From contig JANXZQ010000518.1 of assembly GCA_025355445.1 (NCBI GenBank), forward strand, positions 1 through 35,896: DNA of 35,896 nt. The letters run 5' to 3'. Of the stretch, positions 9,717 through 11,427 are shown one piece after another. The translations under genes were made by a program, and so were the position numbers. The notes beneath the pieces are model-generated. The model searched no databases. It was not told where the DNA came from and was given only the letters and a program-made list of their open reading frames with translations. This stretch comes from Gammaproteobacteria bacterium. GTDB taxonomy: Bacteria > Pseudomonadota > Gammaproteobacteria > Steroidobacterales > Steroidobacteraceae. The number at the start of each line of letters is the position of its first letter. Within the stretch, counting starts at the first letter, position 1.

Positions 9717-10109
9717 CTACGCCACGATTTCAATTCGATTGCCATCCGGATCAAGGACCACGCTCTCGTAGTAGCCATCCCCGGTGCGGCGAGGGCCGTC
9801 CAACGCCTCATAACCGTCGCGCCGCAGGCGATTCGTCAGTTCATCGACGCCCGTCTCGGAGCCCACCGACACCGCCAAGTGCGTAAGTCCCATTCGCTGA
9901 GCACCGGGAGCGTGCGTCACCGCCGCGACCGTTGAACTCCTCATGACCTCAAGCCGCGGGCCACCCTCAAAACTCAGAAAGCGCGACTCGAAGCCTTTCG
10001 CGGGGTTTGCGTACTTCTGTCCGGCCGTCGCATTGAAATACTTGGAATAGAAGGCAACTAAACGCTCGATGTCCTCAGTCCATAGCGCGATGTGATCGAT
10101 TCGGATCAT
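9717..10109 (-). CDS. VOC family (glyoxalase-like) protein
   Basis: 130-aa ORF MIRIDHIALWTEDIERLVAFYSKYF...GLTHLAVSVGSE...SVVLDPDGNRIEIVA, typical of the VOC fold. Confidence 0.92.
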   Translation of the reverse strand: MIRIDHIALWTEDIERLVAFYSKYFNATAGQKYANPAKGFESRFLSFEGGPRLEVMRSSTVAAVTHAPGAQRMGLTHLAVSVGSETGVDELTNRLRRDGYEALDGPRRTGDGYYESVVLDPDGNRIEIVA

Positions 10110-10132: not shown

Positions 10133-10690
10133 TTACTTGTTGATCCTGCCAATAATGGCCTTGCGGGTCACGACCCCCCAAAATCGGCTATCGTTGCTGT
10201 TGTCCCGGTTGTCTCCCATCATAAAGAAACTGCCAGGTGGCACCTGAATCGGCGCCATGGACAGAGAATAGTCCTTGGTGACTTCCTCCGGGACTAGATA
10301 CGGCTCCGGCACCGGCTTGCCGTCCACGATTGAAACGCCCTGCCTGATCTCGACCGTTGAACCGCCGACGGCAATTACCCGTTCCGCAAATGTCGACGAT
10401 GGATTCTTGGGCCAGCGAAACACCACGATATCCCTGGGTTTTGGATCCTCGTGAACAAAGGGCCATGCCGAGACGAGAAAGAATTCGTTTTTTTTGATCG
10501 CGGGTGCCATGGCATTAGATGCCATCCTGTAAGGCGTGAATCCCAAGAGCCGGATTCTCGGATCCTCAGAGTCGGGACCCAACGGATTGAAGTAATAAGC
10601 TCCGAGCAGCAATGCTGCGACAGCGCAAATCGCCAGCAACAACACCCGGTCACTCACTCGCCACCTGTCGCGCCTTCGGCATACAGCCAT
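10133..10690 (-). CDS. Signal peptidase I-like protein (S26 fold), predicted catalytically inactive
   Basis: 185 aa with an N-terminal TM, S26-like box [24 protein letters not shown], box [25 protein letters not shown] and box [15 protein letters not shown]. The Ser and Lys of the catalytic dyad are Ala and Glu. Confidence 0.85.
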
Positions 10691-10881
10691 CTTGTGATGA
10701 GGAATAGAAATACTTGGCCAAAGAAAGCGGCAACCGCGAGCGCAATAGGCATGAACCTACCGGCACCCGGAATTCCCCTGATGTCGAGCGGCGACAGACG
10801 CATCAAAAGAAACAGCAGCCAGATCGCCGCCCAAATCACGAGGCAGGCAATTGACGCATTCCGCAACGATGTCTTGGCCAC
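10654..10881 (-). CDS. Small two-TM membrane protein
   Basis: 75 aa, GTG start, two hydrophobic helices. It overlaps the start of the signal-peptidase-like gene by 37 nt on the same strand. Confidence 0.55.
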
Positions 10882-10991
10882 GAAGAGACGCTACCTCTTT
10901 GATTCCTGTTCCACCACCAATAATTGCACCCAGCGCCGATTGATATCCGTACGTCGACTGTTCTAAAGTATCGGCACCCTGGTACCTATAA

Positions 10992-11427
10992 AAAGGGGAT
11001 GGGATTGCCGGCCTTGCGGCTGCCCGTGCGCTGTCGGATTCCTTCGAGCGTGTCATCCTTCTGGAGCGCGATACGCTCGCTGAGGATGCCTCGCCTCGAA
11101 TGGGCGTGCCTCAAGGCAAGCAACCTCACGCTCTGTTAGTTGGCGGACTACGCGCGCTGACGGAGCTGTTTCCGCGATTTGTGGAGCAGCTGGTCAAATC
11201 CGGCGCCGTCGCATACGACTATCGGATGGTCCGCTTTGAGATGGGCGGCTTTGATCCCCTTCCGCAACGCGATCTTGGGATTCCTGTTTATTCCGCCTCT
11301 GCTGCGTTTGGCTGTGCAAGATCCCGAAGTTCACAAGCTAATGACAGAAGTGCAGCAGTTGCTCAAACCGCCCAGCGTCTATAACGATCTCGATCTGCGT
11401 CGGCGGATTGCGCAAGTAATGACCTAG
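10992..11427 (+). pseudogene. FAD-dependent oxidoreductase (geranylgeranyl-reductase-like) remnant with a large internal deletion
   Basis: Frame A reads GDGIAGLAAARALSDSFERVILLERDTLAEDASPRMGVPQGKQPHALLVGGLRALTELFP...GGFDPLPQRDLGI (FAD-binding N-terminus preceded by an in-frame TAA). The shifted frame reads LRLAVQDPEVHKLMTEVQQLLKPPSVYNDLDLRRRIAQVMT* (C-terminus). Confidence 0.72.

Follow-up and report, generated by a model that had tools for sequence, protein, structure and literature searches.

A PA1303-like signal peptidase homologue in which both catalytic residues are replaced

A minus-strand ORF in the window (the whole stretch of 35,896 nucleotides that was analysed) encodes a member by descent of the type I signal peptidase (SPase) family S26 in which the nucleophilic Ser of box B is replaced by Ala and the general-base Lys of box D by Glu (Table 1). 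We put the chance that its product is a dead, membrane-anchored, peptide-binding SPase homologue at about one in two (roughly 0.5). A first-pass annotation of the same DNA had reported the ORF with both substitutions and had proposed a pseudoenzyme rather than a decaying gene. Strand, frame and codons were borne out, and the gene is an SPase homologue without its catalytic dyad; the claim that it is maintained is favoured only indirectly, and the Ala/Glu pair was found in no homologue.

Table 1. Features of the SPase-like gene and of its surroundings in the window
Feature	Position	Strand	Details
SPase-like ORF	10133..10690	-	185 aa from ATG 10690, or 174 aa from GTG 10657
Predicted N-terminal transmembrane helix	10592..10651	-	residues 3-22 of the 174-aa form; AlphaFold helix and hydrophobic sequence
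Box B catalytic position, Ser replaced by Ala	10511..10513	-	codon GCC; context SNAM
Box D catalytic position, Lys replaced by Glu	10382..10384	-	codon GAA; context FAERV
Box E, fully conserved	10184..10216	-	sequence alignment
Glyoxalase-family gene	9717..10109	-	directly downstream of the SPase-like ORF
75-aa ORF with two hydrophobic segments	10654..10881	-	just upstream; stop overlaps the GTG start
FAD-dependent oxidoreductase N-terminal fragment (GDGIAGLAAARALSD...GKQPHALLVGGLRAL)	10989-11380	+	PF01266 only 19 bits

Membership of the family is not in doubt. The ORF matched PF10502 (Peptidase_S26) with 119.4 bits (E=2e-34) and TIGR02227 (bacterial signal peptidase I) with 123.7 bits (E=6e-36), well above the curated cut-offs of 22.9 and 47 bits, and E. 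coli LepB structures were also matched at the sequence level; on the strength of these scores the homology is not due to chance. The AlphaFold model of the product has an SPase fold (mean pLDDT 88.6), and the best PDB matches in a fold search with it were SPases, including LepB, SpsB and the dead SipA (4n31; TMt 0.78-0.82). S26 proteins from viral contigs were only other members of the family and were used solely for structure alignment. The start of the gene is the uncertain part of its extent. The ATG at 10690 is possible and would place an extra basic stretch before the transmembrane helix, while the GTG at 10657 agrees with the family alignment and overlaps the end of the 75-aa ORF by 4 nt.

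Both replacements were confirmed in an alignment with LepB and in a profile alignment of the S26 frames that we collected. In the latter, 144 of the 158 distinct frames carry Ser and Lys at the dyad columns, and the Ala/Glu pair occurs in the query only. The Ser nucleophile and the Lys general base are required for signal-peptide cleavage by SPase I. Since the query has equivalents of neither LepB Ser90 nor Lys145, cleavage by the Ser/Lys mechanism is ruled out, and judged from its sequence the product is unlikely to be an active signal peptidase. The boxes are altered beyond the catalytic residues themselves: the family consensus of box B is IPSxSMxPTLxxGD, and box D of the query reads ERVIAVGGS. 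Thus, boxes C and E bear out the view that the fold motifs are preserved, and B and D do so only partly; an intact box E and membrane anchor, also claimed, are seen in the alignment and in the model, respectively. E. coli LepB shares boxes C and E and the fold with the query, but it is active and longer, with two transmembrane helices and an extra domain.

The nearest relatives of the query are not housekeeping LepB proteins but short, single-TM accessory SPases. The best match is WP_003082673.1 of P. aeruginosa (annotated lepB), which is 43% identical across 82% of the query sequence; five other short single-TM SPases (L116-L120) are 32-37% identical to the query, and targeted searches recovered further short members of the group. 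Query and short relatives have in common a stretch before box B, YxxNPxGTxxxDPRxRxxG. WP_003082673.1 differs from the query in that it keeps Ser and Lys, and its gene neighbours are an S9 peptidase and HxuC. We take this protein to be PA1303 from its HxuC neighbour. The paper that characterises PA1303 is reportedly Waite 2012 (J Bacteriol 194:4521). The neighbour supports the assignment because PA1302 is HxuC, and PA1303 is described there as a signal peptidase, both genes being quorum-repressed (PMC5767178). A P. aeruginosa record (L218; NZ_CP133752.1), labelled a plasmid, carries the PA1303-like gene with hxuC, rnd and phnW and resembles a stretch of chromosome. With its short single-TM form, its motif before box B and its closest sequence match, the query looks like a descendant of a PA1303-like accessory SPase rather than a copy of its own genome's LepB, and it departs from that group in its dyad.

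Nearly all relatives of the query keep Ser/Lys. Among the short PA1303-like members, two have lost the Lys with the Ser retained, one to Ser (L120, in G441) and one to Gly (L157, in G877). In longer or other forms we found Ser replaced by Gly with Lys kept (L122, in G405, for which a box E sequence was also recorded), Lys replaced by Gln (L135), and Lys replaced by Arg (VRRLIALPGD) in homologues of ~330 aa from two related genomes (L125 and L134, in G614 and G714). One frame on a Candidatus Zymogenus MAG contig (L049) has both dyad residues replaced, by Gly and Leu; the same small contig also carries a normal SPase gene at 591-1289. A tree of 25 rows requires a minimum of four dyad losses. The end branch of the query is among the longest in that tree (1.45), and the tree does not fix its exact place; the fork with the short forms (91/95, drawn open) takes in canonical SPases too. 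Because the query lost both residues and L120 and L157 lost the Lys, one could suppose that short PA1303-like SPases of Gammaproteobacteria repeatedly turn into non-catalytic membrane proteins, which would imply a cleavage-free function of the subfamily; we consider this generalisation doubtful.

No orthologue of the query was found in 22 other genomes of the genus or in 216 other genomes of the family (217 with its own), and fixation of Ala/Glu therefore cannot be shown. An Ala/Glu homologue was likewise absent from samples of the order (396), the class (369) and the phylum (399, by profile search), and from the GTDB contigs, phages and plasmids searched. The first-pass annotation had itself said that its reading would fail if homologues keep Ser and Lys, the loss then being merely recent, and the relatives come close to that.

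Two further SPases, both with Ser and Lys, are encoded in the same genome, a draft MAG of 548 contigs (84% complete, 6.2% contamination estimate). Their motifs are FRIPSDSMMPTL/YIKRLVG (L001, on C488) and FRIPSASMMPGL/FIKRLIG (L002, on C287). Both look active, and as far as sequence can tell the cell need not rely on the query gene for cleavage. In lacking the dyad, in its predicted SPase fold and in having intact SPases elsewhere in its genome, the query matches pseudo-signal peptidases of the SipA/SpsA kind.

SipA/LepA of Streptococcus pyogenes (PDB 4n31, 4k8w) resembles the query in having an SPase fold without the Ser/Lys dyad. It has Asp48 and Gly85 at these positions, keeps the peptide cleft and shows no detectable peptidase activity; it is essential for pilus polymerisation, and mutating the former dyad residues has no effect (PMC4049620). 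Unlike the query, it comes from a Gram-positive bacterium, is only ~26% identical, and is encoded within pilus operons relying on a class B sortase (PMC4049620). Among the inspected neighbours of the query gene (glyoxalase, DUF349, MFS, aldolase and DUF885) there is no pilus, sortase or secretion gene, and nothing in this neighbourhood marks the query as a SipA orthologue or pilus assembly factor. The parallel drawn earlier, SpsA of S. aureus, is indeed listed as inactive, and as dispensable (PMC12445088). It stands beside an active SPase I, as the query does, but it belongs to a Gram-positive lineage and is likened to the query by description, not by sequence. If the query is functional, its likeness to SipA and SpsA suggests that it would act by binding rather than by cutting. 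A short accessory SPase of the PA1303 kind would have been the ancestor, which lost both cleavage residues and retained the predicted fold, the membrane anchor and box E. The most probable mode of action would be non-catalytic, that of a chaperone, scaffold or decoy similar to the role proposed for SipA in pilus assembly: the product would hold, or compete for, exported or membrane-proximal segments of the sort that the active ancestor bound, and cleavage itself would be left to the two intact SPases.

The main, serious rival is that the gene is young and non-functional: selection on an accessory SPase would have been relaxed, the dyad would then have been lost, possibly via two single-nucleotide steps, and the gene would now be becoming a pseudogene. 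We hold this to be a real prospect, somewhat short of an even chance. A single nucleotide change is enough to turn Ser (TCN) codons into Ala (GCN) codons, and likewise Lys (AAR) codons into Glu (GAR) codons; the query is known from a single genome among those searched, and the lack of any Ala/Glu orthologue counts against maintenance, as do the long branch, the additional changes in boxes B and D near the active site, the lack of a pilus, sortase or secretion neighbour and a GC3 (0.66) below that of the neighbouring genes (0.70-0.82).

The slot in which the gene lies points the same way. Flanking genes are syntenic and 76-95% identical with a same-genus genome, and in the closest same-genus relative at the locus (G014; MFS 95%, aldolase 91% identical) the SPase is absent between DUF349 and MFS. 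There (L179, about 2280-2780) the three-gene segment seen in the window gives way to a short unrelated ORF and a remnant of 47 bp from the 3' end of the glyoxalase gene. Because of this remnant and the other sequence in the slot, we rejected a clean insertion into a site that was empty before; the history of the slot is one of deletion or replacement. In the window, the FAD-oxidoreductase fragment, which lies between the SPase-like and MFS genes, seems to be what is left of a gene, and the 75-aa ORF looks internally shortened, as its homologue in G008 is 33 residues longer internally. Together with the absence of the SPase and the glyoxalase remnant in G014, these features mark the slot as unstable, and the presence of gene fragments in it counts against a maintained gene. 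The 75-aa ORF is probably not a functional partner of the SPase-like gene: we considered it as an operon partner and rejected it because the G008 homologue does not stand beside an SPase, so that the pairing is not conserved.

Decay accords less well with the state of the gene itself. Despite the long end branch, the frame is open over 174-185 codons with no stop or frameshift, and the fold is predicted with confidence. Among 20 dyad-intact sequences, 30 columns are conserved at at least 85%, and the query differs at 10 of them, mostly in boxes B and D. At the 17 strictly invariant columns it loses two, exactly the dyad, and keeps 15 of the 15 others. The chance that random mutation of invariant codons would hit the dyad first is ~0.008, or 0.004 if nonsense changes are avoided (about 0.4-0.8%); this test concerns one gene and was conceived post hoc, after the two losses had been seen, and gives moderate support. 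The open frame, the 15 retained non-catalytic residues and the intact predicted fold thus favour, indirectly, a maintained pseudoenzyme over random decay.

Two other explanations are far less probable. The first, that the protein is still a hydrolase with a relocated catalytic apparatus, could draw on S47, the equivalent of LepB Ser88 two residues before the lost nucleophile, which is kept (SNAM); we regard it as very improbable, since the general-base position holds Glu, no Lys or His is found there or nearby in box D, and SipA function is unaffected by mutation of residues at or near its lost dyad, which speaks against a relocated site in SipA (PMC4049620). The second, an assembly or sequencing error or MAG contamination, is suggested by the fragmented draft and its contamination estimate and is less probable still, as the flanks are syntenic with a same-genus genome and two errors would hardly have struck exactly the two catalytic codons while the rest of the frame stayed open.

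Dead signal peptidases have been described mostly from Gram-positive bacteria. The query looks like a Gram-negative case, derived from the PA1303-like accessory group. That a signal peptidase which does not cut can be essential is shown by SipA (PMC4049620). A Gram-negative dead SPase, together with the separate losses of Lys, suggests that the short enzymes of this group may serve in binding, in a role that can be separated from their proteolysis, and the repeated loss of dyad residues within the PA1303-like group is a broader hint.
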